Source: Tetrahymena elliotti 4EA
Lineage: Eukaryota; Ciliophora; Oligohymenophorea; Hymenostomatida; Tetrahymenidae
Direction of reading: 5' to 3'
Length of the DNA: 64,000 nt
Assembly (NCBI GenBank): GCA_000231825.2
Contig: JH720299.1
Coordinates: 1,138,134 to 1,202,133, forward strand
Part shown: positions 32,778 through 62,197 of the stretch, one piece after another
Layout: each line of letters begins with the position of its first letter
Position numbering within the stretch: position 1 is the stretch's first letter
Notes under the pieces: model-generated
The model's input: the letters and a program-made list of their open reading frames with translations, nothing else
Told to the model about the DNA's origin: nothing
Database searches by the model: none
Made by a program: the position numbers and the translations under genes

Positions 32778-35700
32778 ATGTCTTCTTAGATCAATTAATG
32801 CAGCATATTAGCAGATCAAGGAGAATTTAGAACATTTTTTTAGCCAGAGGAGGTGCTTGATTAAATATAAAAAAAATCAATAGATTTAGATTGCATTAAA
32901 GATAAAGATGTTGTTATTGTTTTAGGGTCAACTGGAAGTGGAAAGTCAACAACGCTTAATTTTTTAATGGGGAAGAAAATGATTTTGAAAACATTTTCTT
33001 GTACTAATTATCTCTAAGGTTATGATGGCTTAATAGATGGAGGAGATTATGAAGAGATAGGTACTGAAGAAAATGAAGATGAGTTTGAAATTGGTTTTAA
33101 AAAACAATCTTAGACACTTCATTTAAAAGTAAAATAGCTCAGTAATAGTGATTTGTTTATCTGTGATACAACAGGATTCAATGATAACAGAGGTTTTGAT
33201 GTTGAATTATCAAATTAAATATGTCTTTCTATATTTATCAAATAATGTAGAAGTATTTGTCCTATTTTAATAATAAATTATAATGACATGTAAGCTACAA
33301 AGGGTTAACTTTTTAAAGAACTTCTAGTATCTTTTTCAAAATTTATAGAAACAGAATCTATGAAATAAGTTTTGTATTTCTTTACTCATGTTCCAATTGG
33401 GAAAAAAAAAACTCATGTTAAAACATAGATTGTTCAGAGTTATGAATCTCTCAAAGATAGCATGACTCCACAATTATAAACTTTGATTTTCTCTATTTTG
33501 GATAACTTTAATGAAAGGGCATTTATACTAAATCCTCTTGATGACGATCCTTAAAATTATATAGATAAAATAAAAACTTAAGAATTCATAAATAGCCCTG
33601 ACAAAATCTTTAAAATAAATTTATCAGAGGATACAGAGACTAAGTTAAAAATATATTCAGAGGATCTCTTTTAATATGTTATAAGATGTACATAAAAGGG
33701 ATTTTTAATTGAAAAAATAATTGATCCTTTAAATTAATTTTTAGAGATAAAAAAGAATCTTCAAAAAAATTTTATGGAGGATAAATTCAACAAATCCATT
33801 GATTATGTTGTTAAATATGCTCTTCAAACTAAAAATATTGCTTTTAAAAATTTAAATTTTTCTAAAAAATTATAATGTCAAATCAATGAAGAATACATAA
33901 TTAAAATTAAAGAATGTCTAGAATAAACAAAGAAGATAAATTTATATAGAAATAATTATTTTTAAGAATATCAATTTTCTTATTAAAATATTATTGATGA
34001 AATTAGTTTTATCACCAAAGATCTTTTTGAAGAAGTTAAAAAAGTATTTCAATAATACAAAATAGAATCTTTTGATCTTAAGCTATTAAGAATGAGTTCC
34101 ATAAAAATTCTTCAATTATTTAAACTATTACCTAATTATTAGAGGGATTTATAAAATTTTTAAGAATAGATAAATAATAAACTATAATTTTAAATAAATA
34201 CAAATACATTTTTAATACAGTTATCCTTTTTATAAAAAGATGATAAAAAAATTAAATATAATGTAGAAATGATAGCTAAGTCATTTTAGCTGTATAAAGA
34301 AATAGATACTTAATTAGATAGATAATTAATGAGTGATAAAAAAATAGAGCTTTTCTAAACATATATGTAAAGATTTAAAAGTCAGCTTGGGTTATAATTT
34401 AATTCATTAAAAATTAAGTTTATTGATATTCAAAGAAACTTAGATTAAAATTTACTACCTAGTTAAATCTAATTTAAACAAATTTTAACAGAAAAAGACT
34501 TCTTTGATATCAAAGTTTTATTTGAGCTTTACTCATAAAAATATTTGCAAGAAAATATAGAAATATGTTAGTAATATGTAGGAGAAATGAAATAAATAAT
34601 GGAAACATTATTACAAGGAATAATTAATTACATGATAAATAATTCATAAAAGAAAAAATATCTTAAAGAATTTAAGGATGGCTTTGATATCTTAAATTAT
34701 TTGACATAATTAAATTAAATAATAAAATTTGAAATAAATTTAGACTATATTACCCTCATTTAGAATATTAAAAAAAAGATTTCTAAAATAAAAACGTAAA
34801 TTAAATATGAAATCAAATTAATTAATTCAAATGAACTATTTGAAAAAGGCTCATCACAAATTCATACAATTTTGATGAAAAGTATGAAAAAATTAAAAAA
34901 ATATAGTTATTTTTTACATGAAGTCTCTTGGATTGATGATAAACTGAAGGCAAAATGTGTTCAATAAACAATAAAGAGCATGAAAAAAGCAGTAAATAAA
35001 TATTTTGTTTCTTGTTTAGAAAATTGTGAAGAATTGAATAGTGATTAGAATTTTGAGAGATTAAACTCATTTTTGAAATGTTTATATAAATTAGGAGAAA
35101 TTAAAGATTTGATAAATGATTTTGATGAGAAATTTAATAATTGTGTTGAAACAATTAGCACATAAATTGTTGAATACTTAAACTAAATTCAATTTACAAT
35201 TTAATCAATTGTGAATGAAAAAGAATCTTTTCCAACATAAAATCAACTTAGAGAGATAAATTCATATCTAGCATATAAAAGTAAGATAGAGAAAATGAAA
35301 AACCCTATTTTGAGTATAAAAAAAGCAGATTCACTTTAGTAATAATTAGAGATGAATAAATCTATAATCTATGAACAAGATAAAATATAAAAAATTGAAA
35401 TTGAAATTTATAATGATTTTGAGGAGTATTTTAAAAAGATATTTGAAGAATTTCAAAAGTTTTTTAAAGAAAAATCAGCTGATGAAATAAAAAAATTTAT
35501 GATGGAAGAAAATAAAAAAAGAGGACTAGCTTATTGGAAGAATTTTAGTATTATGCTTGACTTTTGCTCAAAGGAGTGCTAATGGATAATTTAAATAATA
35601 GGATCTAATTCATTTAAAGAAACTATGAACAATGCTATAAATGTATTCTAAGATTTATAGCATTTTTACAAAGAGACAAAAAGTGATTAAATGAGACAAG

Positions 35701-37868
35701 ATAGTTTATTTCTTGTTGATATTTAGAACTAATATGATTTATTAGAAAAATTTATTGATACTTTTTCTAATTTAGAATCTTTATCTTTCATGAAACTACT
35801 TGATATCCAAAATCCTAAATAAATTATCAAAGAAAGTGTTCAAAAACTTTAAAAAGCTATAAAGCTAAATTAATTTGATGAAATTAAGGCATAAATATTG
35901 TAGCTGGAGAAACTCTAAGATTAAAATTCGAAAGATTAATTAATAAATTGCATGAATTTGTTAGAAGAATATCAATAATAAATACTGACAAGTATGCGAT
36001 TTTAAGTTGATTAAAAAAATAATAATCTATGTGTTTAAGAATCCTTAATAGAAAAATTAAGATACCTCAAATAGATTTAGAATATCAATAATAAAAAAAA
36101 CTCTTAAAATTTAGAAAATATTTTCATTAGATATGTTAATTAAAAAATCAATTAAATTTTTGATCACATAACCAATTTGCAATTTAATGAAATTCATCCT
36201 TCATTTTCTTTGATTTTGCTTTTTATTAATTTCTTATAAAAGGATTATTCAGATTTATTCTCTGGCGATTTTTTTAAATAAGATGCTTTAGGAAAAGAAC
36301 AATTGAAATAAAAAATACAATTTAAAATTTAAAATCTGTATGAATTTTATGAAAAACAAAAGCTGTTTAATTTAAATAAAAAGCTAAAATAAATGATTGC
36401 TTTATAATTAGATGATGAGGATCCATTCATAGAAACATACAAAGAAGAATTATTAAAAAACTTTAATCGTCTAAGAAATTATGCAGATCAAGAATTAAAA
36501 GAAATAGAAAAAGATCTAGAGAAAATTAATTCTAAATATCAAACAGAAATAGCAAGCTTGAGGCTGAAAAAACTTGAATATTTTTTTAAAAAATTTCAAA
36601 AATAAATAAGCTTTGTGTAGAATTAATAAAAATAAAAGGAATATGAATTATATTTATAATAATTAGAGAAAAATATTGAACAAAATATTTCAGAACTGAT
36701 AAGAATATAAAACAACTTAAGTATTATTTATTCTCATGATAGTTTTTAAGAGAAGGAATCAAAGTTATAGTAGTTAAAAAATGAAAATGCATCTTTATAT
36801 AAAAAAGAAATAGAAACGATTGAAATAGCTGTTATCCACTCTTTGACATATTTATTAAATTCTCACTCAATCATAGAAAAGTAAATCAGAGACTAGTAAG
36901 TAAAGTATCTTCGAAAATGCTTAAAATATAAATCTCATTTTAGCAATGAAACAAAAGAAGAGCTTTTAAAAATCTTTTAAGAATTACAAAAAAGCATAGA
37001 ATAATTTTTTAATAGTTTAGAAACAAGCAATTAATAAAATAAAAAATTATTTAATCTTTTTGATTATTGTGATTTTGTTAAATTATTAGCATAATCAAGT
37101 GATTCTTGTAAAAATTTAGAAGAAATATATTAACAAAAAGTAAATTGTATAGCCAACTTACTTTAGCAAATAGAAAATAGATAGAAGGAACTAATTTAAA
37201 TATCTGATTAAATGAAAAGCACAGAAGAATTTTAAAGAATATACTTATTTACAAAAGAAACTGAAGATATGATAAATTTGTATTTTTAGAAAAAAAATTA
37301 AATATTATTATTAGATGGATAAAAATTAAACTTAAATTTATAGAACCTAGAATAAGTAGAAGAAGGAATACTCAAATATTTTTAAAATGTTAAATAAGAA
37401 ATAGAAATTAATTTTAAATAAAGTAATTTCAAGAAATTAAGACAAAACATTTAGATTTTGAACGAAAGTTAATAGCTGAACTCATTATTGAAGAAAAAAA
37501 TTGTTTTATTTCAAGAAGAGCTATAAAGTGTTTAATTAAAAGCTTAAAAAATTGTATCTTTAGTTATTCAAGATATTTCAACATAAAAATAGAACGAATA
37601 AACTTATTAATTTATTAATTAACTTTATGAATTCTAGGATGAGCTAAGCAATTTTGATGATTTAAACATTTCTGCCTAATTAGAAAGCATATTATCTCAT
37701 CTCGAAGTCTATATTGAAAACATATGTTTTAGCTAAGTATACGAATGCAAAATTTTTGATAGATTAATTATTTAATCCAAAGTTATTCAGTAATTCCCAA
37801 ATTTATAAGGAAAAATTAAAGATATAATCAACATATAAATTAACAAATCTATTAACTCTACATTTTGA
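32778..37868 (+). CDS. Giant GTPase-like / coiled-coil protein, module 1 (1696 aa)
   Basis: Single-exon frame of 1697 codons (ATG to TGA). After a short leader (MSSQINQCS) comes DKDVVIVLGSTGSGKSTT with the P-loop at residues 50-58. Next is an acidic insert, then FICDTTGFNDNRGFDVEL (switch/G3-like, D130) and LYFFTHVP in the place of a TKxD (G4) motif. This is the order of TRAFAC/AIG1-like GTPases, but G4 is not canonical. The remaining ~1300 residues are almost entirely charged helix and coiled coil (K, E, Q, N, I, L) with no enzyme motif. It lacks the SecA domain of the convergent neighbour at 38482. Close paralogue: 49415-54526, similar along its length (KINLSEDTETKL is shared). Function unknown; a nucleotide-regulated filament, tether or membrane-remodelling role is possible but unproven. 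Confidence 0.85.
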
Positions 37869-38481
37869 TGTATTCTTTTTCATGTATTTTTTTATAAATT
37901 AACATCCATTTTTTCATTTATTTTTATGATCTCAAGAATTAACTCAAACATCTTAAAGGTTTAGCTATTAATATATAACATCAAATTTAAAGTTAATGTA
38001 GATAAGTTAGTTGATTATAAAATGTTTAATTGATAAGTTATTGAATACAAAAACAGTCAATTAACTCTTGAGAAAATTGGATGTAATTAAACTTCATAAT
38101 TCCTACATTTCCTTTATTTTTTGACAGTTTGGTTTAAAAAAATCGTTATTACTTAAGTATTTATAATTTTATTTAATATTTATGAAAAAATTAATAAAAA
38201 AAAATAAGACAATAATGTAAATTGGTAGTTAAAAAAATTTTTATTTTAAAATCACAAGTTTTGAATTGAATCAAAAAAATGCTAATTTAAAGTTTTTCTA
38301 TTTAAAAAATAAAGAAAATATTAAATACTACAGACTCTCTTTAAATAACCAAATAAAAACAGACTTCTAAATTTTAATAAAATCATTTAATTTGAACAGT
38401 CTTCTTGCCTTTTGGTTGAATTTAGAAGATTCTTTTTTAAGAAATTATGGTTTTTAAATTAAAATTTTTTTATAATTTAGA
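37869..38481. other. Convergent 3' flanks within module 1
   Basis: 613 bp between two convergent stop codons, AT-rich, no feature seen. The same position in module 2 is 444 bp long. Confidence 0.45.
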
Positions 38482-41400
38482 TCAAGAGCTTTTATTTATA
38501 TAATCTATTGCACTTTATTTATTTTGGTTTATGATATCTTCATAAAACTAAATACTTTTTTAGTGGAGACTAAATGCAGATTATATTCTCTATTCAATAC
38601 TGCTATATGTCTCATCCTCCAATTAATTTCTAATTTAATCTAGGTTAGAATATAGGGATTTTTACTTTTAGTTATTTTTCCATTATGAAAGCTATTCTTC
38701 TTCTATTTTGAAATCGTTTTGAATGTCTTTTTCATTAAGAATGAGATAATATTTTCCTTATTAACCTTACCTGGCAGTTCTTCCTTTTATTTGAATTTCT
38801 TCTGTTTTATTATCAGATAAGAATGTTTAAATAACTACAACTCCACCTACATTATTTACTTTAGGATCTAAACATATGAAATCTGTTCCTCTTCCATATT
38901 CCCTAACAAAGAGCCCAATTTAACCAGATCTTGTGACTCTCTTGACCTCAAAGTCAACATCATCACTATTTTCATGTTCACTAACTACAATATAGTCTTC
39001 TTTAGGGAGAAAAATATAGCTACTTTCATGATATTCTGATAAAGATTTACTATCTTTGAAGAATATAAGAACAGATTATTATTATTTGATTGCTTAGGCA
39101 GATACCTCTTAAATTTACAAGTATTAATTTTCTTAATCTGTTTCGAGTTTAACCATATCTCCTTCTTTAAAGTCTAATTTTTTATCTCCAAACATAGAAG
39201 GAGTAAAAATTTGAGTAGTGAAATTATACTTTAATAGGGCTTTTTTCATCTGTGAATTTAAAGAGCTAAGAGTTCCTGTAACACCTAGTATAGCAGAATA
39301 TTAATCAGGTAATAAAGCATATGAAATTTTTCCACAATTTAAAGACAAACAAATTTGAGATTAAAGTGATTCATCATCTATATTACCTAATGAATTTTCA
39401 TAAAAATATGCAAATAAAGTTTAGTAGCCTTTATAAGTTGTAAAAGAAATAGTGGAATCATTTTATCTGTATCCTATTTTATTATTTTTGACCACATAAT
39501 TTGATTATTTCTTATGACTTTCAATTTTTTTAACATCTTAAGCTAAATTTGAAATATGATTTTTGAAGAGATCCGCAAACTAAGGATATTATTCAATTAA
39601 TTCATCATAATTCTATGATGATTAAATATTTTAAACTATTTCATCTGAGGTTTGATTTCTCAAATCCCAAATATTTCTTATTATTTTCTCTATTTCTGGT
39701 GTTTAAAGAGAAGTAACAGGATTATATGTCTATCCATAATAACTTTGATTGAAGAAAATATCAACTTCATCAATAAGCATAACTTTAAATCTTGAAGCCT
39801 CATTAATTTTTTTATTATTTTTATTTAATTTACTGTTTTTAATGACATCTAATGTAGCTTTTCTAACATTCAATTTATTACTTAGGAATTTCTCTGCTTG
39901 ATTTTTAAAGGTTCCATAAGTTATTTTATCAGAAACCCCAAAAATTTCAAACAATTTACGAAAATCTCTATTATCTCTTTCTGAAAGATAATTGCTATAA
40001 CAAATAACATCTACATCACATCCTAACAAAGCAAGTGTTAATGAGCAAAATCCTAAAACAAGAGATTTACCTTCTCCAGTAAGAATTTCTATCAATTTAT
40101 TTTTAAATTAATTTTAATTTCTAAAATATCTACCAACTCCCTACCAGAATCCATACTCTTTGTCAATGCCTAACAAAATTATTACGCTTAAAATTTAAGT
40201 GTGATTAGGTTTTTTAAATATATTTTTTTTTCCTTATTTTTATTCTCCACTTTCATCAAGTGTATAGTAAGCACATACTTAGGCAAGCATTTGCAATACC
40301 GTTCTCTTTTCTTATTGTATTCTTTCAAGGTTAATAGACTTAGATTTCAATTTGGCTGATTCTACTATTTCAGACCATTTTTCTTTTTTATATTTATATA
40401 ATCCAATTATCTCTTCATATTTACTCAAATAGATATTGTAGTACTATTTCAGATCTTCTTTTTCTTGAGTGCTTAGTTACTATTTTTTATTTCCTTATAA
40501 AATTTTAGATAAAACATAGTTTACATCATGCTTTCCTACTAACTCATTAAACTTTTCTGTTTTATACAATTTAAATTAAGGTATTTTATTAATTATTTGT
40601 GCCATAGAAGGATCTTCTTTATAAGTATTACCTATTTCAAAAACAAATTCTTCTCCGAGAATTTATTATATTTAATCAGCCGCCTCATAAAGTTTTTTAT
40701 CTACAATTTGAACAAATTTACTGACATGTTCTGCAATTTTTTAAATAGTAATTAATACTTAACCAACTTTAACAATTTTGATGCTATTTTCTTGGGAAAA
40801 ATTATGAATATTTTCTATTTCCTTATCTAATGAATCATTGAGTGTCTGAATGACTATCTGCATTTAGCTTTCATATGGAAATTACTCTATGCCTTTCAAA
40901 TGATCATCAGCCCTATAAATTTTGTTGATTAATTCATTTGTTTTTTGATCATAATTCAAAGTACTCTTTACTATATCAACTGCTTCTTTAGTCAGGGATG
41001 TTACCTTCTACTCTGTTTATTTCAGTAATTATGATATGTCAACAAATTCATAAGATAATTCTTTATTTAAATAGCTGCTTTTTCTTAGCACGAAAATCAT
41101 TTCTTTTACTTTTTAGAATTCACATTCCTCTAAAAATTATTAAAATTATTTTTCATTGTTTTCAAATTTATTTTTTATTTCTTTGAATATTGTGTCATAA
41201 GTCTTAATTTTCAGGCCTATTTCCTTTATTTTTTTTAATTGTTAAGAATTTTCAAAAATATTTGATTCACTTTAAATGAGTACTATTAAGCAATCAAACT
41301 TTTTCCAAGTCTAAATTTAAAAACTGTTTATCTACAATTTATCATCCAGTAATTATGATTTTTCTACATTTTCTAAACACAAAATAAGTTTTGTTAAAAT

Positions 41401-44400
41401 GTCTTAAAACAATTTTTCTGAATTCTTCAATTCCTTAGTTTCATCTAACTATTCTTTTAGTATCTAAAAGAATTATTGATGCTTAAAAAAACTTTGTAAA
41501 TTTTATGCTGTGAAAGATTCTTAATTTATATTAATAATTTTATCAAATTCATAAAATAGTTTATTCGAATTTGTAAACAAATGCTATGATAGGCCTTCAA
41601 TTATTTAGTCATTTATTTAACATACGTCATTTTCATTCTTAAATTTATCAATTATATCCATGCTACACAAAATTACTTTTAATTCATTTTACAAATTTTA
41701 CACTTCAATAACTGGGTAAGAAGTTTTAATAAATGAAACTGACTAATCTATTCTTTATTAAATTGTATTAAGTATTTTTTTGAAAGCAGGCTAATCTGTC
41801 TTTTTCATTTGTTTTAGTTTAGTGATAACTTCTTTTACTAATCCTTTTTAAAAATGAATTAAAATATCTAAGTATTTCTGATTATTTTGTTCAGTCATTT
41901 ATTCTTCTATTCTCATTACTATTGCTAAGCACTCATTATATAATGAACTATCTAAATTCTCTCCTTTTTAGTTAAACTCTTTCATTTACTTTATTTAACT
42001 CTAAAAAGTAAAATCTTAATTTTACATTTTATCATTGATAGATTATTCGAGACTCTTAAATAGCTATTAAATAGCCTATTTAGTGTTCTATAACTCATCT
42101 GAATATATTCTCTACCATTATTCAGAATTAGATGTATAGGCCTCACTTAGGCAATAATACAAAGAATTCAAGTGTTTTAATTCTCGCTAATCATGAAGAG
42201 AGAAAATAGCTTACTCTATTTCTTTAACAATTTTATCAATTTCATTTTTAATATTAATATCCCACTCTGCTTAGTTGAAAAGATTTTTAAATTCGCCTAA
42301 ATAAGAAATAAGTTACTTTAGATAATCATATTTTGATTCCATATCTTTAAATTTAAGATTCTTGACTTAATTTATAAGTAGTTTATTCTAATGTTTGATG
42401 AAATTTTCATTAAAATCTTTAAGGAACTAAGATAATTGTTGTTCAGATTAGTGAAATAATTACTATTAATATTTTTTAAAAATTTTAAGAATCTAAGAAA
42501 TTTTTGTTAAATCATTATGTAAACTGGTGAAATCAATTTAATCATTCCTTTTGAACTAGAAAATAATACTTATTTTCTAAATCTGAGAATATTAGGTGTC
42601 AAAGAGTTTTTCTAAGAACTTACTTAGAGTTAATTTATCTCTCTCACTTTGAAGCTTGCTCAAAAGATCTATCTCTTAGTCTAGACTTTAATACTCTTCA
42701 TTTCTTATCAAGCTATCAAGTTTCTTAAATGAATCTTGAATAACCTCTTTTGGGGTTTATAAATTTCTAAATTCTGTCTTAATAGAGTCAAATTCATTCA
42801 TAATATCTACAAACCTCTTAATTGCATCATAGTTTCCTTATATATCTTAAAGGTCATCAATTGACTGTTTCTTTTAGATATATTCAAATACCATTGATTA
42901 ATAGATTTTGTTAACTTAACTTGTAAGCTTATCAAATGAATATCCATTTGCAAGTTATTCAATTTCCTAATAGTCAGTTGAAATTATTTTTGCCTGCTTG
43001 ATAAATTCATGGTATTTAGAATAGCTTGTATCAGGTGCTTATTATCCTTTACTAAATAGTTCTATTTACTAGAAATTCTGCTCATAGTATTTTTCAATTA
43101 AATTTGATAAATTGGCTATGATCAAATTTGAATTCTATTTAACTTCATTTATCATATCTAATTTTTGAATCTTCTTTAAATATAAAATATATTCATTTAT
43201 TGTTTTCCAATGAAAATTATTATATTTGACTTCCTATTTCATGTCTCTTATAAAATCATTTATGATATCATTCTACTCTTTGACTTTTATTTTGATAGAG
43301 TTTTTGCATTCTTCATATTTTTCATTAAAGTTAGGTATTGAGAATATGCTCAAATGTTTCATTTTAATTAAGAAAAATCTTATCCATATGTAATTATCAT
43401 CTTGTAATAAGTCTTAAATCTTCTTGATGCATAGCTCGAAGTAATTAGTCAATTTCTTATTTATTTTGGTCTATTTGTGAAAAGTAAATTTAGTTTAGAA
43501 ATATTCGTCTGTCCATTGCATACTGATTAAAAAATCAATAGTATCTTTTAATTTTTTAAATTCTTTTTACTCCATTTTCTTATTATTTTTTTAGACTTCT
43601 TCATTCAAAATTTCTATTTCTTCTAATTCCTCAATTTAATCTGAGTATTTATCTAATATCTCTTTTGCTTCTCCTGATTTTTTAACTATCTTCTGTCTGA
43701 TTTCTTCCATTATTTATCTGTACTCCTCAATAGTTTTGCCTTGAATAAATGAATCTAAATTTCTTATGCTCTCTAATACTTTTAGAACAGTTTGCAATTT
43801 GTATAAATGAAAATCGTCCTTTGAGTTTTCCTTTATAAAATTAAATAATTGCTCATTAAACTACTTTAAATACTGCAAACCCTCATCATAATTTTTTTCG
43901 CAATTAGGAATATTCATAGAATACTTAATATTCTAATTAAGCAATCTCAGCAAATTAATTTCAAAATCAGGAAGCATTTTTACTTCAGGATTGAATAATA
44001 GTAAAGAATCTTCAAAAGATGGTTAATTCTTAAACTCTTACTTTAAATATTCAATTAAATTCTTTAAATTTTATAAAATATTTTAATTGTTATTTATTTG
44101 AGTTTGCTTCATGTTCTCATAGATGTTTTATTTTTCATTTTCTTAAATAAAATCTCTAATGAATACATCAATTTACTTAAAGAACTCAATCTATGATGCT
44201 ATTTAATCTATATCATTTTTTAGTTTGTCCAGATCTAATAAATTAGGTTTTTAGTACAATTATTCAGATAAATGAATAAAACTCTTAAATCCTTATTGGT
44301 ATTAGTGATTAATTAATTCTAAGCTTTACTTGTAAATTTAGGAACCAATTTATGTTTATTCTGAAATATCTTTAAGCTTTTGTAAATGATTCTTAACATT

Positions 44401-45666
44401 CTCAAGATTTTATGGAAATTCTAATATTCTTTGGCCAATCTCTGAACAAACATTCTACACTTCCTATTTAAATTCACTCTCACTTGTTTTAAAAATATCT
44501 TTCTCAAATACTCTCTCCTTGTATGTGTCAATAATTTGTAGTTGTTTAATTATTTACTCAATTTCTAACATATTTTGAGTACAAAAAATGTTACTTTTCT
44601 CAGATGCTTCTTAAAAGATTTTAAATACTAGATTTTTTTATTTTTCAAAGTTTTTAACTACCTCTCTTTACAGATCATTATAAGAAGAGATCAAATAATC
44701 ACTTTGTATATAATCTTTTATTTGCTTAAATTCAAGCATAGTCTCCATCAATTTTGCATAATGTCCTTTCTGTTAACTTTTTATGACAGTGTTGTTTGTT
44801 TCTTCTACATACAAGCATATCTTTTAAGTAGACTTCTCGGAAACACTAAAGCTAAACTCTTCAGAAGGATTAATAAAAGGTTGCGAATTAATTATTTTTT
44901 ATTGCATTTCTAAATAGTTGCCATCCAAAGGATTCACAATCATATTATTACTAGATTATTGTATCTGATCTAAAATTGCATTCAAGAAATCTTTCATTAT
45001 TTGTTATTAATAACTTTCCTATCCCATCTAACAATCATAAAAGCTTGCTATTTCTTTAGTAATAACTTTTATCTACTTCGCTTCTTCTACCTTTGTGAAT
45101 AAAAAAGTTATTTTTTCAAATTAATCTTTTTCTGGATGTTTTAGAATTCTAGTGACAAGCTCAAAAATTTCCATGAATAAAGCTCCTCTTTATGCTACTA
45201 ATTCATAATAGCTTATCAAAACTACCATTCTCATGCTTGCACAGCTTTAAATAAATTTATTTAATGAAGTAGCATTAATTATTTCAATCTCCGCTCCGCG
45301 ATTATCAAAAAACCCTGGACAATCACACAAATTATAATTATCTCTTAAATTTGCTATCTGGAGAGATATTGTTTGTGATTACTTAGTATGCCCAATTTAA
45401 AATGAGCCATCAGAATCAATTACCTCATATTCTATTTCACAAATTCTGCCATCTAAATCTTTGACTTATTTTATTTACTTTTGGTACATATTTTAACCTA
45501 ATACATAATTAGCTGTAGTACTCTTCCCACATCCTGTTGGTCCTACGAATAAGATGATGTCTTTATCTTTTAAATCAGCTTCTGCTTCTATACCTTGTTT
45601 GGACAAATCTATTAGTTTCTTGGTATCTAAACTTGCTTCTTTGTTAATTACTTGAGATTAATCCAT
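38482..45666 (-). CDS. GTPase-like / coiled-coil / SecA-like motor fusion, module 1 (2394 aa)
   Basis: One uninterrupted frame of 2395 codons (ATG at 45666, TGA at 38482-38484). The N-terminus has the P-loop GPTGCGKSTTANYVLG (from residue 42), LCDCPGFFDNRG (D115) and FLFTKV. Then come about 1600 residues of coiled coil. The C-terminal ~550 residues have the motor motifs of bacterial SecA in order: GIDKEYGFWQG then EILTGEGKS (Walker A, T1863-K1867), CYSNYLSERD, LIDEVDIFF (Walker B, D1966), YVVKNNKIGYRQ, ILGVTGTLSSLN (2128), EYGRGTDF (2258) and IKGRTARQG (2295). SecA drives protein export through SecYEG. Ciliates lack plastids, and the SecA preprotein and zinc-binding regions are not evident here, so the substrate is unknown. 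The protein lies convergent to the 32778 gene. Paralogue: 54971-62197. Confidence 0.88.
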
Positions 45667-46878: not shown

Positions 46879-46887
46879 TTATCAAAT

Positions 46888-49361: not shown

Positions 49362-49414
49362 ATCTACATTCTAACTTTAGTCGATCATCTATCTACATTC
49401 TAACTTTAGTCGAT
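49362..49414. repeat. 24-bp direct repeat (x2) ending at the ATG
   Basis: ATCTACATTCTAACTTTAGT followed by CGAT occurs exactly at 49362-49385 and 49391-49414. The second copy stops at the base before the start codon of the 49415 gene. It may be a leader duplication or regulatory site. Confidence 0.9.
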
Positions 49415-52400
49415 ATGTATACAGACTCATTATTTTTAAATGGATCTTTTATCTTGGACAATAATAGTCTATGGTTAAGTAGTGTTGTTGTTTCTTCTTA
49501 ATTGAATTAAAATGATCCAAATGACCATCTAAAAGAATTTAAAACCTGTTTTTAGCCTCTTGAAATGCTGAATTAGATATAGATAAAATCAAAAGATTTT
49601 GACCTCTCTAAAGACAAGGATGTAGTTTTGATCTTAGGATCAACTGGAAGTGGAAAATCTACTACAATTAACTATTTATTACAAAAAAAGATGACTCGTA
49701 AAATATTATCGTATACTCGTTTTATTGAAGATATTGGAGAAATAGAAATAGAAGAATCATAGATAACAATAGAAGATGAAGATGATGAATTTAAAATTGG
49801 CTTTAAAAAAGAATCATAAACTCTAACTTTAAAAACTAAATAAATTTAAGATAGTAATTTTTTAATTTGTGACACCCCTGGATTTTAAGATAATAGAGGT
49901 TTTGATGTAGAGTTATCCAATTCTATCTGTCTAACTAATTTTATTTAGTTATGTAGAAGTATATGTCCTATTTTAACAATAAATTATCACGATTTAGATT
50001 CAGGAAGAGGCCAACCTTTCAAAAATTTGCTTGCTTCATTTTCAAAATTCATATCAACAGACTGCATGAATAGAATTTTAATTTTCTACACACATGTTCC
50101 AGAATAAATAAGCATACCTTAAATAGTTAATGAAATTATTTAGATTAAATCTTCTCTAGGGTAAAATAGCTCACCTGAGGTTAAAATGTTAATAAGCGAG
50201 ATATTAAAAAGCTTTAACCATAAAAGGGCTTATATTTTGAATCCTCTTGATTAATAACCGGAAATTTATCTTAAATTAATTGAATAACAATATGAAAATT
50301 AATAATTCATAAATGATCCTATATCAAAATTTAAAATAAATTTATCTGAAGATACAGAAACGAAGTTGCAAATATACTCGGAAGATTTGCTTTCTTATGT
50401 AACAAAGTGTACTTAAAAAGGATTCCATATAGAGTTGGTTATTGATGATTTAAATCATTATTTAGAAATAAAAAATACTCTTAATATCTAAATTATGAAT
50501 GATAAGTATAATAAATGTATTAAACGCATAGAAGATTATATCTCCTTAACTAAAAAGATAGCTTTCAAAAACTTAAATTCATCTAAGAACTTACTATCAG
50601 AATTTAATGAAAGATATATTAAGTAAATTAAAATTTGTTTACAATAGATAGAAAAGATAGACCAGTTTAAAAATCCTCACTTCTCCACATACGAATTATC
50701 AGTAAATCACATCATAAATGAACTTAAAGGAGTGATAGAGGAGATTTCAAAAAAAATAGAAATTAATTTAACTAACTAAATCGAGTCTTTAGATATTAAA
50801 CAGCTAAAATATGATTTGATAAAAGTACAACAACTATCAAAATTATCTCCCGACCTTCAGGCATTCGATATCTAAATATAATAATTCATCAATCAAAAAC
50901 TATAATCACGTAAAAATGAATCGTGTTTATTTTTAGAGGATTGTTTGACTGTTAACAAAGAATATGCTATTTTCAAAGAAAAATCGTAATAAATAATTAC
51001 AGCTTTTAAATTTTTTCAAGAAATAGATTCTTAAATACAAATTTAATTGTAAAATATTGGAAGGGACTCATTCTATTCTTGCTTTAAATAAAAACTAATC
51101 GACATCCTTGAATAATAATAAGAAAAAGTATAATAAATGATCAATAATTTCAAAAAGGAATTAGAAGATGATAAAATTCCAAGCAAGATCAATTTAGATT
51201 TAATTGAAGAAGGATAAATATTTTTTGGAATATAAATTCTACAAGAGCTAAGCTCAAATTAATTTATTGCTTAAAATATTGTATAATGCAGGAACTATCA
51301 TGCTTCAATAAAAGATAAAATCAAAGAATAATTGATTTTGATGCTTGAATATTTGAAAGAAAATTCTGAGAAAAAAAAATATCTGAAAGAATCGGAATCT
51401 TTGATAGATAAACTAAAGTTAATTTTGAATATAGATTTAAATATAAAATAATAAATTGAAAATGATTATGTAAAATTCATTCAATGTGTCTAATGTAAGA
51501 TTAAATTTATAAAGACACAAATTAAGTATGAAATAAAATTAATAAAAAATAACGAAAACCTTGAAGCAGAATCTGCTCAATATAATAAAATCTTAAATAA
51601 AAGCATATAAAAAATAAAAAAATATTGTGAATTTTTAAAAGATGTATCTTGGATAGATAAGAAATTTAATACAAAATGTGTAAAGGAAACATAGGATAGC
51701 ATATAAAAATCTATGATAAAATATTTTGAATTTTGTGTTGAAATCTGTGAAGAGTCAATTAATAATCAAGATTTAAAAAAAGTAGACTCTTTTATGATTT
51801 ATTTCGCAAGTTTAAAAGAAATTAAAAATCTATTTGATAACTTTGAAGAGAAGACTAATAACTGTATTGAAAAATTTAGTAATTAGATAAAAGAAAAATT
51901 CTAATCAATAAGAGGTTTAATAAATAACATTTTTAATTCTAAACAATTACCAAATAAAAGCTAACTTAAACCAATAGATGAATTTTTAGAATTTAAAAGT
52001 AAAGTAGAAAAAATGTAAAATAAATTGATAGACTTTAAATTTGATTAAGAAATATTAATTCTTTTTGAAGAATATTATAAAAATATTTTTTCAGATTTTT
52101 ATTCTTAATTTAATCATTAGCTATCCTTTGATAAATTAGAAGAAATCATGAATAAATAAAATGGATAGAAAGATAAATCTTTTTGGAGAGATTTTATTTT
52201 ACTTATGGATTTTTGTTCAAAAGAATGTAAGTAAATAATGAACATACTCGGTTTAAATTCATTTAACCAAATTATTGAGTAAATGACAAACTGTTTTGAT
52301 TAATTATTACACTCATATCAATAAACAAAAAATGAATAATTCTACTAAAATTAAGATTATCTTTGCAAGATTTCTTATCAATATGGTCTTTTAGAAGCTT

Positions 52401-54526
52401 TTACATAATATTTTAGTAATTTAGAATCATTGTCATTTATGAAAAAGAAACTGATAAAAGTATAAAGTTCTATGTAAATAATATAGGGGAATGTGCAAGA
52501 TCTGCAAAAAGCTATTAAATAAAATAATTTTTCTGAGGTTAAGATAAACATAGATTAATTAAGTCTATTAACAGACTAGTACTCAAAGAATAGGTTATAA
52601 GGTTTTATTTAATAGTTACAGTAATCAAAGAAAGATTTAATTATAGATTCAAATTTAATAGTTGATCAGACTAAAAACAACTTTTTTATCAATTAATAAT
52701 TAATAGAAAATTTTTAAAATTTCAAAGAGATTTCAGAAATTCTCAATGAAAACTTTACTTCAGATTTACAAGATATCATAAATCACTTCGTAAAATAAAA
52801 ATCTGAAATAATTTTTGCAAGTCTTTAACAATATCAATTTTAAGAGATTTATCTTTAATTTTCATTAATTAAAAAATTTATTTACCATCTCAATAACTTG
52901 ATTCCTGAATTATCTTTCTTTTTCATAGAGGAGTTAGAAAATCAATTAAGATATGACATTAAATAATAAATTGAAAAGCTAAGTTCTAAATCTCCATAAA
53001 ATTTGCTAAAACTAAATAAAAAATTATATTAAGCAATCAAACACGCTGAAGAAGATAATCCTTTTACAGAAGTTTTTTAAGAATAGATTATCCTTAATTT
53101 TTATCTTGTTATACATTATGCCTAAGAATAATTAAATGAGATCTCTGAAACTTTATAATAAATAAATTAAAAATCTATCTTAACAGCAGATGTAAGACTA
53201 AACTAACTTGAACAACTTTGTTAGAAATTAAAACATCAAATATCTTTATCATAAGATATTCTAGAACTTGAAATGATAAATTAATTTGAAATAGATTAAT
53301 AAGAATTAGTCAATTTAGTAGAAGAAAATAAAGATTTGTACCAACAAATTAAAAAGAAAAATAGCAAATCATCATACTTAAGAAAGGATAATAATTAAGA
53401 TGGAGAAATATAATCATATGAAGAAAGGTTAATAAATTTAAAAAATTCAAATAAGAAGTAATACAAGAAAGAAGTAGAGATGATAGAAATTAGATTATTT
53501 CATCTATTAGGAGACTTAAAAGATTAGTTTTTAATTATGAATAAAGAAACTAGAGAACACTAAGTTAAATAAATAATCAAGTAAATTTAATATTTAAAGT
53601 ATTTAAAAAAAAAATAATATTAAAGAATTGATATTATTTTGCAAGATTTAAAAAATATGTTATTCGCATTCTTCTAAAAGCTAGAATAAGAATTAACCAT
53701 AGAATTATTTTAAGAGCTTATTGCTTACTAAGATATAAAGAAGATCTTAAATTAATTTCCAAATAACAAAAATTTATTTGATGAATAATACGAAGCATCA
53801 AGGAATAATTTTATTAGTTTCATATATGATTTAGAATAATAATAAAAACAATTAAAAGATGAATCTGATAACATGTAAAACATTTCAAAGCTAGTAGAAA
53901 TATATGAATTCATAGAAAAATATAAAGGTTTCATTAATTTAAAAGCTGAATATCTTGATTACCTATAAACAGATGAATTAAAATTTAATCTAACTTTTAT
54001 TAATAAAAAATAAATTGTAGAAGCAATACAAAAATATTTCTTAAATATAACAAATTAAATACAAATGAATATCTCTCAAAACAATTTTAGTTCCTTAAAG
54101 AAAAATCTTTAAATTTTGTAGTCAAATATTTAATTAAACTAACTTTTGGAAATTGATCTTTTTGATTTTTAATAAGAACTACAAAATATTTAACTTGAAG
54201 CATAAAATGTCATATCTCTAATTATCAGATAAATTTAAGAATAAAAGAGTGACTAAAATACATTTCTGTAAATTAATATCCTTCATGAATTTTAGGGTTA
54301 AATGCAATTTTTTGAAGAATTAGATATTTCAGAATAATTAGATATCATAGAAACATACCTTTAAATCCATATAGAACATCTATTTTTTGATTTTATTATT
54401 GATTCAAAAACACAAGACAAAGAAATTATTTTTAAAAATATTATTTTATAATTCCCTAAGTTGGAAGGAATAATTTAAAATAAAATTTATATCTTAACAC
54501 AAAGAACAATCTATCAAATGATTTGA
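49415..54526 (+). CDS. Giant GTPase-like / coiled-coil protein, module 2 (1703 aa)
   Basis: Single-exon frame of 1704 codons, ATG to TGA, starting MYTDSLFLNGSF. The P-loop is in DKDVVLILGSTGSGKSTTIN (G75 onward). The G3-like motif is LICDTPGFQDNRGFDVEL (D153), closer to the consensus DxxG form (DTPG) than DTTG of its paralogue at 32778. LIFYTHVP stands at the G4 position. The remainder is long helical/coiled-coil sequence that aligns by eye with the module 1 protein through to the C-terminus (KINLSEDTETKL; LESLSFMK; DFCSKEC). The N-terminal leader is about 25 residues longer than in the paralogue. No SecA domain. It is convergent with the SecA-fusion gene 54971-62197, as in module 1. Confidence 0.86.
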
Positions 54527-54970
54527 AGCTTAATAACTATTTAAATTTTATTTGATCAATAAAGTGTTTTAATTATAATTTATTTTTATTTCAATTCAAT
54601 TTGTATTCATTCGGTATGCAAAATGTTAGGAATTAAATTATTAATTTAGTGAATAAAAGTAGAAAATAAATTAAAAGTATTCTTTGTTGTTTCATGTTTG
54701 ATGACCAAATTGTCTGAAAATTTAATCCAATTATAGATTATTAAAAATTTTCAAAAATCCATGATGTATTTGAAATTTATTCTAGAAAAAATAAACTAAT
54801 AATTAATCCATGAAATTAATTAAAAAAATATTCTTTTACAAATAACATAGATAATGTCAAAAAAAAATTCATAGATAACTTAAATATTTTTGAGCGATTT
54901 TAAAAAATAGCTCAATATTATTGGCTTTTATAATTTATAAAAATAGGATGAAAAGATTAAGATAAAAATT
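54527..54970. other. Convergent 3' flanks within module 2
   Basis: 444 bp between convergent stop codons, AT-rich, no feature seen. Confidence 0.45.
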
Positions 54971-57900
54971 TCAAGAATTTTTGTTGACATATTAAATGGC
55001 CAAGTCAATGTTACTTTTAATATCATCAAAATATTTAATAGTTTCATCATGAGAAGTTTTTGCTGAAGCAATATTCTATTCAAGACCTTTATATTTTGTG
55101 TCCTCCTAGATGTTTCGTTTTTCATTTAAATTATTAAATAGAGATTTTGATACTTAATTATTTTTCCAACCTGCACACTATACTTGACTAATTTAGAAAT
55201 CTTATTAAATATCTTTTTGGTTTAGGATGAGATAGTATTTTCCTGGTTAACCTTATCTAGCTGTTCTTCCTTTAATTTATATTTCTTCAGTTTAATTCTA
55301 AGAAAGGAATGTTTGGATTACTACTATACCACCTACTTAATTGACTTTAGGGTCTAAACATACAAAATCTGTTCCTCTTCCATATTCTTTAGTAAAAAGC
55401 CCAATTTTACCAGACCTGGTCACTTTTTAAACTTAAAAATTAAAATCCTCTTAATTTTCATGATCTGTAACTACTATATAATTATCTCTTGCAAAACATA
55501 TGTAGTTGCTTTTATGATAGTTTTCTAATTCCTTAACATCTTTAAAGAAAATGAGAACAGATTACCTGTTTTCTACAGCTTAAGCAGAAATTTCTTGTAT
55601 TTTGATATATTAATTTTCTTAATCTGACTCTGCAAACACATAATCAACTTACTTAAAGTCTAATTTTGATTCTCCAAACATTGAAGGAATGTAAAACTCT
55701 CTTGTAATTTTATATTTTTATAAATTTTCCTTCAATTATTTATTTAAGGATTGTAGGGTACCAGTTACTCCTAAAATAGCTAAATACTATTTTGGCAATA
55801 GAGCATAAGAAATATGTCCACAATTCAAAATAAATCCAATTTAATTTTAAAGTGATTCATTATTTATATTACCAAGAGAATTTTCAAGGAAATAAGCAAA
55901 TAAGGTTAGATAACCCTAGTAAGTGGAGAATGTAATAGTAGAATCATTTTATCTATAACCAATTTTATTGTTTCTGACAACATATTATTTAGAATCTTTA
56001 TGCTTTTCTACTTTATTCACATCCTAAGCTAACAGCTAAATATGTCTTCTAAACATATCCTAAAATTTGGGGAATTTCTAAATAAGTTATTTATAGTTCT
56101 ATGATGAAAATATACTGAGAGTAATTGTTTATTAAGTCTATCCTTTCTTACTCCAAATATCTCTGATTATATCTTCAATTTCTTTGTTTGAAAATAAAAC
56201 AACAGGATTGTATGTTTTTCCATAGAAATCCGTATCAAAAAATACATCAACCTCATCAATTAGTAATATTTTATTCATCTTTTAAGCAATCTAAGAATTT
56301 GATATATAATTTTAGTTTTCTTATTGAATTAAATTCAAAGTTGCTTGTCTAGTATCTAAATAACTTTGTAGCAATCTCTCGGCTTATTCTTTGAAAGTAC
56401 CATATTTAATTTTTTCTGAAACTCCAAACGCAACAAAGAATTTACGAAAATCTTTATCATCTCTTTCAGAAAGGTGAGAGCTATAACAAACTACATCAAC
56501 CTCACAACCAAGTAATGCCAATAATAAAGAGCAGAATCCTAATGTTATAGATTTACCTTCTCCAGTTAATATTTCAATCAATTAATTTTAGAATTATATT
56601 TTTATATTTGGACTACTTTTAAAAAATTTAGTAAATCCTTACCAAAAACCAGATTCTTAATGAATACCTAAAAGCAAAATAATACTTAGTATCTATGTAT
56701 GGTTAGGTTTTTTAAAGATATTTTTTTTATCTTTCTTTTATTCACCACTGTCAACAAGAGTCCAATATGCACAAATCTAAGCAAGCATATTTAGTACTAA
56801 AGTCTTTTCTTCCCATGTTTTTTTCTGAGGGAGATTTATTTATTTAGATTGTAATTTAACTGACTCAACTATTTCATTCCATTTTTCCTTTTAATATTTA
56901 TAGTCTTTTAAAATTTGCTCATATTTCTTTAGATACACTTCATAATATTCTTTTAAAATTTTCTTTAATTCTTTATCTATAGGTTCCTTTTTATTAAATT
57001 TTTCTGATGAGCATATTTTGCCAAGAATATAATCTACATCATGCTTTCCTAATAATTGATTTAATTAATCAATTTTATAAGACTAAAATTAGTTATTTTT
57101 ATGAACTATTTAAGCACCTGAAGCATCTTGTTTAAGCATGCTTCCTAATTCGAAAATTATTTCGTCTCCTAATATTTGTTTAATATATTCAATAGCTTCA
57201 AATAATTTTTTATCAACTATTTGAGTAAATTTACTCACTTTCTCTGAAATTTGTTAGATTTATTTTAAAAATTGGCTAATTAATTGTAAATTTCCTTAGT
57301 AAATGATATTCTGACTTTATTAAATTTCATTATCTAATTTACTACTTAATTCATCAAGTACTTTTTACATTTAAGGTTAATAACTAAATTAATCTATACT
57401 TTTTAAATGCTCATCAGCCTTAGAAATATTATTCATCAGTTTATTCAAATTTTCATCATAATCTATGCTAGATTTCACTAAATTGATTGCTTAATTTGTA
57501 ATTTATTAAACCTTCTAATCAACTTGTTTAAAAATTTAACTCATATCTTTAAATTCCAAATCAAGTTCTTTAACTAAATGAGAATATTTTCCTATTTAAA
57601 AAATTGTTTCTTTGACTTTTAAGAAATCGTAGTTAGTTAAAGCTGTTTCTAATTCTTACAAATGATTTTTTAATTTATTGGATATGGTTTCTTTCAAATC
57701 CTCATTGTTTTCAATTTGCAATCCAATTTGTTTAATTTTTTTAAGTTCATCTGATTGATCAAAATTAAAGGAATTGTTTTTAAGGAGTCTAAGGAAAGCT
57801 TCAAATTTTTTCCATGTTTTCTTCAAAGTTTAATCAATTTGCATAGATACCTTCATAGTCTATTAAGATTTCTGTAATTTTGTTAATCCTTAGCTAAATT

Positions 57901-60900
57901 AGTCTAATGTTTGCTAAAGTCTTTCTTTGTATTTTTTTAATTCAGCTGTTTCTTCCAGCTCTTCTTTAATAATTTTATAAAATGAATGATGATTAAACAG
58001 AGTATTTAAGAGTGTTAAAGAAAAAGATTCATCATTGCTTAAAAGAATTTTATCACATTCATCAAAAACTTAAGTTGATTTTACATAAATTTAAATCAAT
58101 AGAGTATTCAGCTTTGAATCATATTCAATTTATTCTTCTTCGGTTCCAAATTTATCAATTAATGTCATGTGATTTATAAATGTCTTCAAATTATTTTCGA
58201 ACTATTGAACTTCAATATGAGGATATTATTCATTGATTAAATTAATAGATTATTAGGTTTTTTAAAATATGCTTTTCATTAATCTATCAAAAGATGTTTT
58301 ATCATCTGTTTTTATTTACTTTAATAATTTAATTGCTTCTTTATTTTCCTTTTTTTATAAATGATTAAAAATTTCTTTATATTTTCTATTAGATTCTTCT
58401 TGTATTTCTTCTTCGATTTCTTTAATCTAAGATAGGAAGATATTTTAATTCGATGATTCTTCAGATTTCTATGTAAATTTTTTGATTGTTTCTAACTCAA
58501 CCTTAAAAGTATTGTCTGAAGATGATAATTTTTTTCTAACAATATCTAATTTTTAATTGAATATCAAATAAATTTTTTTATCACAATATTCTGACTCTTC
58601 ATTAAAAGTATCTTCAAAATTAGTGTTTTATTTCTTTGCTTCATCAAGGGCTTATTTTAATTTTTAAAGTTGTAATAATTCATCAGTATTATGAAGAGTT
58701 ATTATGTTGTTTTATATTTCTTCTTTGATCTATTCTATTGAGTATTTTGGATTATTAAACTCCTCTTAATAGAAAATTTACTTGAATCCAGCTAAGCAAT
58801 TATGTAATTAGCTCAATTAAACAAAATTCTATTCCATTTCTTTAAATTTATGTAGCTTTATTTTACTCATTATATTTTTGCTTTAATATGTTTTGTAGTA
58901 GTTAAAATCTTACAAAAATTTATTTAAACAATCCTATGAAAGCTTGTAAAGATCAATCTTATACGTTTTGAGCAATTTCATAATTTATTAAGTTTTTTTC
59001 AGGTTTTTGCGTAATTCTTACAAATTAATTTAATTATGACTATGTTCAGTAAACATGTAGCCAAACGATTAAACTTCATTAGATATCAAATCTTTTAATT
59101 TATTTAATGCTTTATTTAATAACTATTAATCTTTTGGGCTTTTTAATTAACTTAATAGGTCTAATTCTTATTCTAAATTTTACAAATCTTCAGTTTTAAT
59201 ATCATTATCAAGCTTCTTGAATATTTCTTAAATTGTCTCATTTGGCGTGTCTAAACGATTGAACTCTGTCTTTAATAAATGTATTTCATACATATTATCA
59301 ACAAACTTTTTAATTGCTTCATAAGTCTCTTATATTTCTTAAAGATTATGAATCGATTTTTTCTTTAATTTATAGTCACATACCATGTGTTCATATATTT
59401 TTTTTATTAATTCCTAAATCTTTTCAAAAGAAAATCCCTTCAATAGCTTCTCAATATCTTGACACTCGATTTATATGAACTTAGCATTCTAAATAAATTC
59501 AGTATACTCTGTATAATCTGATATTGTCACAAACACTTATTCTTTTTCCAATTATTACATTTTTTGCATATTCTGCTGGTAATAATTCTGAATTTTAGCT
59601 GTAATTGTGTTAAGAATAGAAATGGAATTCTATTTAACATCAGAAATGATATCTAATTATTAAACCTTATTTAAGTATTAAATATTCTAATTTATAGTTT
59701 ACCAAGGAAAGTTTTTATATGTATTATCCTATATCTAAATGTTTATTAGATCTAAGATTGGTTTATTCTTTTCAATTACAGTTTTTCTTACTTAATCTAT
59801 GCAAGCCTAATTTTTTTCTTAATATTTTTCAAGAATTTCTTTGAAATCGCTCAAGCTTTTCATTTTCCATAAGAAAAAATTTACTAAATAGAATTTCTCA
59901 TTTTCTAATGAATTACTAATCTTTTAGCTGCATTGTTCTAAATAGTTCTCCATTTTTTATTTTATTTTTTTAATAGTATTTTATGTGAAGTTTGATTAAA
60001 AATATGAATCTGCCCAATTCATATTTTTGAGAAATAGGTAAATCTTTTTTAATTTGTTAAAATCCTTTTTTTAAATTTGACTGAAGGATTTTCTAAGATC
60101 TGTAATAGATTTAACGCTTAGAGTATCATCAAAATCATCGCTGTCTTCTTCATTTATATATTCTAATTCGTCTAGATGCTAACTTATTAATTTCTTTGCT
60201 TCCTGGGCTTTTTTTTATATTTTCTGCTTAATTTCATCTTTAATTTATTTAAATTCTTCAAATGTTTAGCCCAAAATCTCCATATCTAAATTTCTCATTT
60301 CCTCAAGTGTACTTAAAATATCTTTCAGCTTATATAAGTGAAAATCATCTCCTGTATTTTCTTTGATTAAATTAAAAGCGTCACGAAAGAATTGATTGAA
60401 ATATCCAACAGCCTTAACATAATTATTATCACATTCTGGAATGCACTCTGAATATGAACTATTTTAATTCAGAATTTTAAGGATATTAATCTAAAGTGCA
60501 GGTAAATTGCTTATTTTAGGATTAAATTAAACTTGAGAATCATCAATAGATGGCTATTTCTGAATTTCTTAATTTAAATAATCTATTTAGGTCTTTAAAT
60601 AAACCACAAGTTCTTCATTTTTTTTCTATTCATTTTTCACTATTGCTTCATAAAAGTTTTCTTCATTTTCAGATTAAACAAAATCCTTTACAAACAAACA
60701 AATTTGTTTTAATAGCTAAAGTTTCTAAGCAATTTAACTTACATTGCTTTTTATATTTTAAATATCTTATTAATTGGTATTTGAATAAAAATTCTAAGAC
60801 AATTCTAATAAGTTTTATTTTTCCTATTCAAAAACAACTTTTAGTTCTTATTAACTTTAAAGATAGCTTTAAGTACCTAGTTAAGTTTATCCTGTAAAAT

Positions 60901-62197
60901 CTCTGAGCTTTTGTAAATTAGTTTTCACGCTTTCCATATTTTGAGGAAAATCTCTTTTTATCCTTTTACTCATTTCAGAGCAAATATTTTCAATATCGTT
61001 TTTAAATTGATTCTCATTTGTTTTGAAAGCTCCCTCTTTAAAAACTTATCCTTTATTCTCATCAATAGTTCTTAATTATTTGAGGATTTATATTATATCT
61101 TAAATGATTTAAGAAGAAAAAATATTGCTTTTTTCAGATGCTTCACAAAAGTTATTAAAAACTTAATTTTTATTCTTCTCAAAGCTCCTTACAATCTCAT
61201 TTTAAAGATCGATAAATGAATCTATTAAAAATTAATCTTCTGTGTAATCCTTTACTTATTTAAATTGAATTAATATATCCATAATTCTACTAAATTAAAA
61301 TTATTAGAGTAGTTTTGTAATTTAGTTATTTGTTTCTTACACATACAAACTTAATTTCTGATTGGATGCCTCTGAAACACTAAAACAGAAGTCTGCAGAA
61401 GGTTTACTAAAAGATTTTTATTGCATAATATAGTTAAGTAAAATGTCATTATCACCACTTAAAGGATTCACAATTGCATTTCCATTTTGTTTAGTTTACT
61501 TTACAATAACTTTCAAAAATTCTACTAGTGTTTAATTCTAAATTTCATCATTATTTCCTACTATTTCCAAAATATCTATGAATTCCTTCTAAATTGAATT
61601 AATTGTTTGTTTTTCGGGAACTTTTGTAAACAAAAATGTCATTTTCTCAAATTAATCTTTTTCAGGATTTGTTAATATTCTCGCTACTAATCTAAACAGT
61701 TCTTAAAATAAAGCTCCTCTTTAGGCAATTAATTCATGATAGCCGATTAATACGACTAATCTAACGCTTTTACAATTTTACATAAATTTTTTTAAAGAAG
61801 ATGCATTAGTTATCTCTATTTCTGATCCTCGATTATCAAAAAATCCAGGCGAATCACATAGATAGGTACCATCTCTAGCATGAGCAAGTTATAAATTAAT
61901 AGTATGAGATTATTTAGAGTGCCCTATTTCAAATCCTCCACTGGATTCTATAACTGTATATTCTGATAAGTAATATTCACCATCTATCTCTAAGTTCTTC
62001 ATTTTTTTTTAGAGAAACATTTTATGTCCTAACAAATAATTAACTGTAGTAGTCTTGCCACTTCCTGTAGGCCCTACTAGTAAAATCATATCTTTATTTA
62101 GCACATCATTTTGAGTTTATTCACCTTATTCAAATAGCTTTAACAAATATTTAATATCCAAACTTTACTAATTATAAATTATTTCTGACTGATTCAT
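54971..62197 (-). CDS. GTPase-like / coiled-coil / SecA-like motor fusion, module 2 (2408 aa)
   Basis: One frame of 2409 codons (ATG at 62197, TGA at 54971-54973). The N-terminal P-loop GPTGSGKTTTVNYLLG is at residue 42, the same position as in the paralogue, followed by LCDSPGFFDNRGSEIEI and FLFTKVPEK. A coiled-coil body of about 1650 residues follows. The C-terminal SecA-like motor has EILTGEGKS (T1878), SSHLSERDDKDF, LIDEVDVFF (D1981), YVVRNNKIGYRQ, ILGVTGTLQSLN (2143), EYGRGTDFVCLD (2273) and IKGRTARQG (2310). The two SecA domains are more alike than the coils, which suggests selection on the motor. All ATPase motifs are intact, so it is not a decayed copy. Cellular site and substrate are unknown. 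It is convergent with 49415-54526. Confidence 0.88.

Follow-up and report, generated by a model that had tools for sequence, protein, structure and literature searches.

The window analysed here, a 64,000-nucleotide stretch of the 90-Mb genome of Tetrahymena elliotti 4EA (C7:1138134-1202133, C7 being contig JH720299.1), contains four giant genes arranged as two convergent pairs, A1/B1 and A2/B2. Both A genes lie on the plus strand and are predicted to encode a GTPase head followed by a helical arm, whereas both B genes lie on the minus strand and are predicted to encode the same plan with a SecA-like motor added. The usual image of SecA is that of the translocation motor of bacteria and plastids. 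Here, a SecA core is fused to an immune- or translocon-type GTPase in giant proteins of protists, some animals and some bacteria of host-associated groups, to which Tetrahymena, a genetic model, adds a linked partner that has no motor. The features are listed below in coordinates of the window, with the frames read in NCBI genetic code 6 (aa, amino acids; bp, base pairs).

32778-37868, plus strand: A1, 1696 aa, GTPase and helical arm, without SecA
32835-33815, plus strand: GTPase head of A1, P-loop GSTGSGKS at 32925-32948, TH at G4
37869-38481, no strand: A1-B1 intergenic stretch, 613 bp from stop to stop
45666-38482, minus strand: B1, 2394 aa, GTPase, helical arm and SecA motor
38485-40677, minus strand: SecA-like region of B1
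44653-45633, minus strand: GTPase head of B1, P-loop GPTGCGKS, TK at G4
49415-54526, plus strand: A2, 1703 aa, GTPase and helical arm, without SecA
49547-50536, plus strand: GTPase head of A2, AlphaFold2 (AF2) model nearest to GIMAP2/4/7
54527-54970, no strand: A2-B2 intergenic stretch, 444 bp from stop to stop
62197-54971, minus strand: B2, 2408 aa, GTPase, helical arm and SecA motor
54974-57166, minus strand: SecA-like region of B2, 731 aa, AF2 pLDDT 83.7
56549-56566, minus strand: Walker A motif TGEGKS of the B2 SecA region
56246-56257, minus strand: DEAD-box motif DEVD of the B2 SecA region
55364-55381, minus strand: GRGTDF motif of the B2 SecA region
61187-62164, minus strand: GTPase head of B2, P-loop GPTGSGKT, TK at G4 (end placed by analogy with B1; the profile envelope extended further)

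The positions of the four frames, their convergent layout and the distances between the stop codons had been put forward in the original prediction and were all confirmed. Each frame opens with ATG and ends with TGA without internal stops in code 6; four very long frames are found under table 6, and none of at least 200 aa is listed under table 11. Because TGA accounts for 1.9% of the triplets in this region, the probability of an open run of 1700 codons arising by chance is about 4e-15, and chance open frames were rejected for this reason. The genes are taken to be intronless because their frames are open and because BLASTP aligns them over their full length with proteins of Tetrahymena. By eye, B1 and B2 start in line with P0007 of T. 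thermophila; where A2 starts is less certain. A tblastn search with the B proteins reported no SecA match in the A-B intergenic stretches between the stops.

Domain anatomy and paralogy of the A and B proteins

The G1 motif GxxxxGK[ST] was found in all four heads (A1, A2, B1 and B2), while the G4 motif reads TH in the A heads and mostly TK in the B heads. For the AF2 model of the A2 head, the nearest solved folds are those of GIMAP2/4/7, with Era and Toc34 close behind and Era within about 1 Z. The head may thus have a G domain of the type seen in septins and in the GIMAP (AIG1) and Toc34/Toc33 GTPases, but the Pfam AIG1 matches stay below the gathering score of 27 (22.7 bits for the B2 head, 14.4 bits for the A2 head), and the head sits in proteins of 1700-2400 aa. 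Models of the large GTPases of the dynamin/GBP kind gave weak or borderline matches. The GTPase part of the originally proposed GTPase/coil plan was upheld, and the coil had to be revised. In the modelled part of the arm, AF2 predicts 18 helices with a median length of 23.5 residues, which favours an arm of the helical-repeat type over one long coiled coil. The arrangement of these helices is uncertain because the model that includes the arm has a pTM of 0.54.

That the minus-strand genes carry a SecA-like motor was borne out by Pfam SecA_DEAD matches of 47.3 bits in B1 and 35.9 bits in B2 (cut-off 24.6), and by the presence of the motifs GEGKS, DEVD, GRGTDF and QIKGRTARQG in both proteins. 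For the AF2 model of the B2 region, the best 28 VIA rows were all SecA or SecA2, and the tail of B is accordingly modelled with a SecA fold. Past the matched point, however, 79 residues remain in B2, modelled as a short, a long and another short helix, as compared to 236 residues in the Bacillus subtilis chain 3dl8. On this model, the tail is too short for the SecA wing and two-helix finger. B shares its motor fold and motifs with bacterial SecA and SecA2 but differs from them in having no room for these two elements and in being fused to a GTPase head and a helical arm.

A1 and A2 are 40% identical and B1 and B2 are 48% identical, whereas A and B proteins are 23-25% identical across head and arm. 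Judged from these alignments, A is a SecA-less paralogue of B, a similarity that the original prediction had not noticed. In a tree of head plus arm, A is sister to the B clade that lacks a vWA domain (99/98), and the simplest reading is that A derives from a B whose motor was lost in the lineage of Tetrahymena; the head-only tree left A, B and the C87 clade unresolved.

Linkage of A and B in Tetrahymena

We scanned the T. elliotti genome with the B2 motor, the A2 head and the B2 head, together with stretches round some of the matches, and the counts obtained in this way are lower bounds. The family genes on C7 follow one another in the order A1>, <B1, A2>, <B2, C and D genes, <B3, A4>, <B4, C, D. 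Here, A4/B4 is a third intact convergent pair, located about 43 kb downstream and with 1013 bp between its stops. All three A genes found in this genome are convergent with a B. B3 (C7:1216k-1225k; L010, L011) is matched piecemeal across several frames, is missing the final portion of the SecA region and has no adjoining A, and it looks like a decayed copy.

Beyond this genome, a protein search with the A type, in which the 7983 candidates with the most words in common were scored, yielded 8 proteins, namely five A proteins (all from Tetrahymena), one Tetrahymena B and two metagenome proteins. The A type was thus found only in Tetrahymena among the candidates scored, which does not prove its absence elsewhere. 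Linkage in the other species was read from locus tags and contigs, not from strand. T. utriculariae has the tag pairs 017505 (A)/017506 (B) and 017510 (A)/017511 (B), plus a further B at 017504; T. malaccensis has 007765 (A)/007766 (B), and in T. thermophila A and B each lie on a contig of 877,599 bp. Accordingly, three of the five A proteins are tagged beside a B, one lies on a contig of the same size as that of a B, and the fifth (ABPG73_006204) was not judged. The A tree and the B tree share three splits, with support from 97/96 to 100/100:

Split 1: A1, utr505 and mal7765 in the A tree; B1, utr506 and mal7766 in the B tree
Split 2: A2 and A4 in the A tree; B2 and B4 in the B tree
Split 3: Tthe, mal and utr510 in the A tree; Tthe, mal7770 and utr511 in the B tree

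In the third split, the T. malaccensis A and B were taken from different assemblies of that species, and the B rows utr504, mal010362 and C14b have no A counterpart in the trees. As far as tags, contigs and trees can tell, the A-B linkage predates the split of the Tetrahymena species compared.

A wider family of GTPase-SecA giants

The make-up of these proteins had been taken to be special to the two pairs, which is not the case, since a head with SecA is common to other loci of this genome, other eukaryotes and some bacteria. The B2 motor search retrieved 393 relatives. Among the best 120, which were listed, the seven best are from Tetrahymena, and the named sources include ciliates, dictyostelids, Arcella, Reticulomyxa, Hexamita, bdelloid and other rotifers, and Hydra, as well as a metagenome-assembled genome (MAG) of a gammaproteobacterium; many others are metagenome proteins without a named source. 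A head profile derived from the T. elliotti proteins matches 83 of these 120 relatives, ciliates, slime moulds and rotifers among them, and 77 of the 85 that are at least 2300 aa long. In the 110 proteins with the last SecA motif (both window proteins included), the tail after this motif comprises at most 113 residues in 20 and 285-408 residues in 85. In P0013, Pfam locates a vWA domain within the long tail; for several other proteins it names vWA families but gives no positions. By eye, the T. elliotti proteins C76a-c, C87a and C14a also end in an apparent vWA domain. Further domains vary among the relatives of B, to judge from P0016, which has a weak RickCE-like catalytic domain at its N-terminus, and from P0090 and P0096, which have a U-box Pfam entry.

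A scan of bacterial genomes gave 8 loci, and the head profile matches six of the eight bacterial frames. One of them, L031 from a Legionellales MAG, is a single frame of 3272 aa with head and SecA, whose terminal vWA is a reading only. Its neighbours are DNA polymerase III alpha and RecJ, with an ankyrin-PARP gene two frames on, so that the locus looks like genuine bacterial DNA. In the unrooted SecA tree, bacterial rows fall among eukaryotic rows, several of them on long branches (L038, L037, L035 and others), which makes the direction of transfer uncertain. The genes of T. elliotti itself are split among separate clades of this tree, the C76 motors grouping with C14a and then with a Hydra protein. 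On the strength of these matches, we assign B to a family of giant proteins that crosses domains, occurring in protists, in some animals and in some bacteria.

The original prediction knew of no described eukaryotic system with this make-up. This needs qualification, as giant SecA proteins of eukaryotes were published as early as 2013; it is the GTPase head that is unreported in the literature searched. Woolfit et al. (2013, PMC3639933) described a eukaryotic secA clade with Tetrahymena among the matches and little evidence of true introns, and transfers of this secA into Wolbachia and Amoebophilus (wBol1_1091/1092, Aasi_1610/1144). The B genes resemble that clade in being giant and mostly intronless, in having a SecA domain distinct from the bacterial one and in being prone to transfer. 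They are single open frames with Tetrahymena proteins closest. On the other hand, the word GTPase is absent from the main text of that paper, and no SecA-less partner gene is described in the available part. SecA is also named among the eukaryotic-like domains of phage WO (PMC5062602). GIMAP-type GTPase domains and SecA-like domains are both named among the effectors of Amoebophilus (Zhang et al. 2012, PMC3482391), so that the two domain kinds occur within one intracellular bacterium, but as separate modules; the available part of that report describes no giant fusion or gene pair. The secondary SecA_DEAD proteins of Planctomycetes and others (PMC4452313) are alike in that the wing/scaffold domain of their SecA motor is missing or reduced to a fragment, but they are tied to bacterial type I secretion genes, and the word GTPase does not occur in that text. 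Finally, Legionella fallonii lfa2470 is tabulated as 'SecA DEAD-like' together with eukaryotic-like proteins (PMC4256840), with no architecture given there. No paper on the GTPase-arm-SecA plan or on the A-B pair was found in the open-licence literature, outside of which most subscription papers fall.

Possible function and competing explanations

The sequence anatomy of the proteins, their paralogy, the intact motifs, the linkage and the matching tree splits are established; that the A and B products act together is what we infer. We tentatively read B as a GTP-switched, SecA-type motor that clamps proteins and A as its motor-less partner, probably engaged in intracellular conflict, and we give this joint reading somewhat less than an even chance. 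The G domains of Toc34 and GIMAP proteins dimerise or polymerise on GTP binding. By analogy, GTP binding would make the heads dimerise or polymerise, and the heads of A and B, which differ at G4, may form mixed assemblies. The arm would pass the state of the heads on to the SecA core, which would clamp and pull polypeptide using ATP. Because there is no room for the wing and the two-helix finger, this core would more likely unfold or remodel proteins than translocate them across a membrane. It would most probably act in conflict with bacteria inside the cell, as Legionellales and Chlamydiae MAGs and protists of the kind that host such bacteria carry the family. It is doubtful whether A and B go as far as to be a two-component, GTPase-gated machine for threading proteins, assembled through the heads into coats or filaments around vacuoles or invaders and taking proteins apart there with ATP. 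They would then be the paired, eukaryotic branch of an undescribed family of the type GIMAP/Toc34-GTPase, helical arm, SecA (vWA), which moves between protists, animals and the bacteria living inside their cells. The T. thermophila relatives P0007 (B) and P0129 (A) make the function of the family directly testable.

Several observations weigh against joint action of A and B. At least 13 loci on other contigs have head and SecA matches, sharing one strand, and no adjoining A match:

C14: three loci
C87: two loci
C76: five loci
C15, C4 and C36: one locus each

Together with B1, B2, B4 and the decayed-looking B3, at least 17 B-type loci were counted, of which 3 have an A and 14 do not, and therefore the motor protein can exist without A. 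Left out of this count were strong SecA_DEAD matches on C30, C10, C32 and C8 (the B2 SecA query barely matches C10, C8 and C30, with E-values from 8e-7 to 9e-6), SecA matches without a head on C5, the gene C76f and two short GTPase genes on C32. C76f (L022, L023; C76:393669-404399, minus strand) is a frame of 3576 aa with head and arm that reaches the contig end, with no SecA match downstream and with a head that is 56% identical to that of C76a. This SecA-less gene stands first in the C76 tandem array, ahead of five SecA-bearing genes, and is not convergent; the motor can thus be lost without a convergent layout. The metagenome protein P0131 (1127 aa), which came up in the search with the A type, likewise has a head and no SecA motif. 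TH at G4, which sets the A heads apart, also occurs in 8 of 87 other heads, and convergent genes are not co-transcribed. The A2-B2-C-D block recurs 43 kb on as A4-B4-C-D, and because all its parts are similar between the copies (A2-A4 55%, B2-B4 62%, C frames 59-70% and D 68-81% identical) the whole block appears to have been duplicated; segmental duplication can account for the retained pairing. The dN/dS ratios (NG86) of A2/A4 (head 0.35, arm 0.60) and B2/B4 (head 0.55, arm 0.47, SecA 0.36) are high and fit relaxed constraint equally well; for B1/B2 the ratios are 0.22-0.33 with dS near saturation. When A2, B2 and the protein from the Legionellales MAG were scanned with PADLOC, the only matches to defence models, to mad3/mad8 with E-values from 1e-4 to 6e-3, were confined to the region around the P-loop, and known anti-phage defence systems were set aside.

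Alternatively, the linkage would be a relic: B was duplicated in inverted tandem, one copy lost its SecA tail, and the unit was then copied by segmental duplication, so that A and B have separate jobs and remain together only as neighbours. This explanation is about as likely as the GTP-switched motor with its partner. A and B are indeed paralogues in inverted tandem, the block is repeated, 13 B-type genes elsewhere and the decayed-looking B3 lack an A, and the C76 array contains a second motor loss without a convergent layout. Speaking against a relic, A was never found apart from B in this genome, and both the linkage and the matching splits persist down to 38-48% identity between the pairs of this genome and across species. 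The matching splits are weak evidence here, because linkage alone yields matching trees. Retention of the pairing, as originally proposed, is supported by the third pair, by the linkage in other Tetrahymena and by the shared splits, but independent occurrence of the partners, which had been named as a refuting finding, holds for B. In other words, A and B have long been paired, although B can do without A.

The joint reading overlaps with the view that B is in the first place a weapon, domesticated or circulating and exchanged between intracellular bacteria and their hosts, which would serve the bacteria against hosts and the hosts in cell-autonomous defence, and that the A-B pair is a local elaboration by Tetrahymena. 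What differs is that the origin of the family is placed first in host-symbiont conflict. Its patchy spread over ciliates, dictyostelids, a foram, Hexamita, rotifers and Hydra, the position of bacterial MAG sequences among eukaryotic ones in the SecA tree and the transfers reported to have linked eukaryotes with Wolbachia or Amoebophilus (PMC3639933, PMC5062602) are in line with this view. Against it, the tree is unrooted and several bacterial rows are long-branched, which makes the direction uncertain, and the many listed relatives without a named source make the host ranges uncertain. Overall, we consider it plausible while falling a little short of probable. By contrast, it is quite improbable that B is a true translocase, carrying proteins through a membrane in the way of SecA and SecY. 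The SecA fold and motifs would suit this role, as would a head resembling Toc34, which is a translocon receptor, but B2 has 79 residues where 3dl8 has 236, and 85 of the 110 proteins have instead a stretch of 285-408 residues, placed as vWA in P0013. Least probable of all, and very much so, is that the SecA-like core has RNA or DNA as its substrate, as other enzymes of superfamily 2 do.

Some minor observations concern the surroundings of these genes. The C76 array (C76:325k-404k; L015-L023) contains its five head and SecA genes in tandem, with frames of up to 3854 aa, and two of the genes contain assembly gaps (N). On C32, a divergent pair of short GTPase genes with frames of 567 and 464 aa (L030; C32:93001-99000) was matched in the head searches and has no adjoining SecA matches. 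Beyond B in both block copies on C7 lie the C frames, two adjacent frames of 463 and 770 aa that recur as 468 and 739 aa (L009:1-3871 and L013:2990-6867). Three of them were scanned without a Pfam match, no relative was found for the 770-aa frame, and a protein search with C2b gave no match. The idea that the C frames are degenerate heads was abandoned: C2b has a P-loop-like remnant by eye, and HHalign gave a probability of less than 2% for both C frames. The duplicated block also contains an AAA ATPase frame of 1156 aa (L009:5251-8721), fragments of which lie near B3. Upstream of the pairs, the window contains a CCDC39-like frame at 7259-8206 and a cyclic-nucleotide-binding frame at 15357-17390, both on the minus strand.
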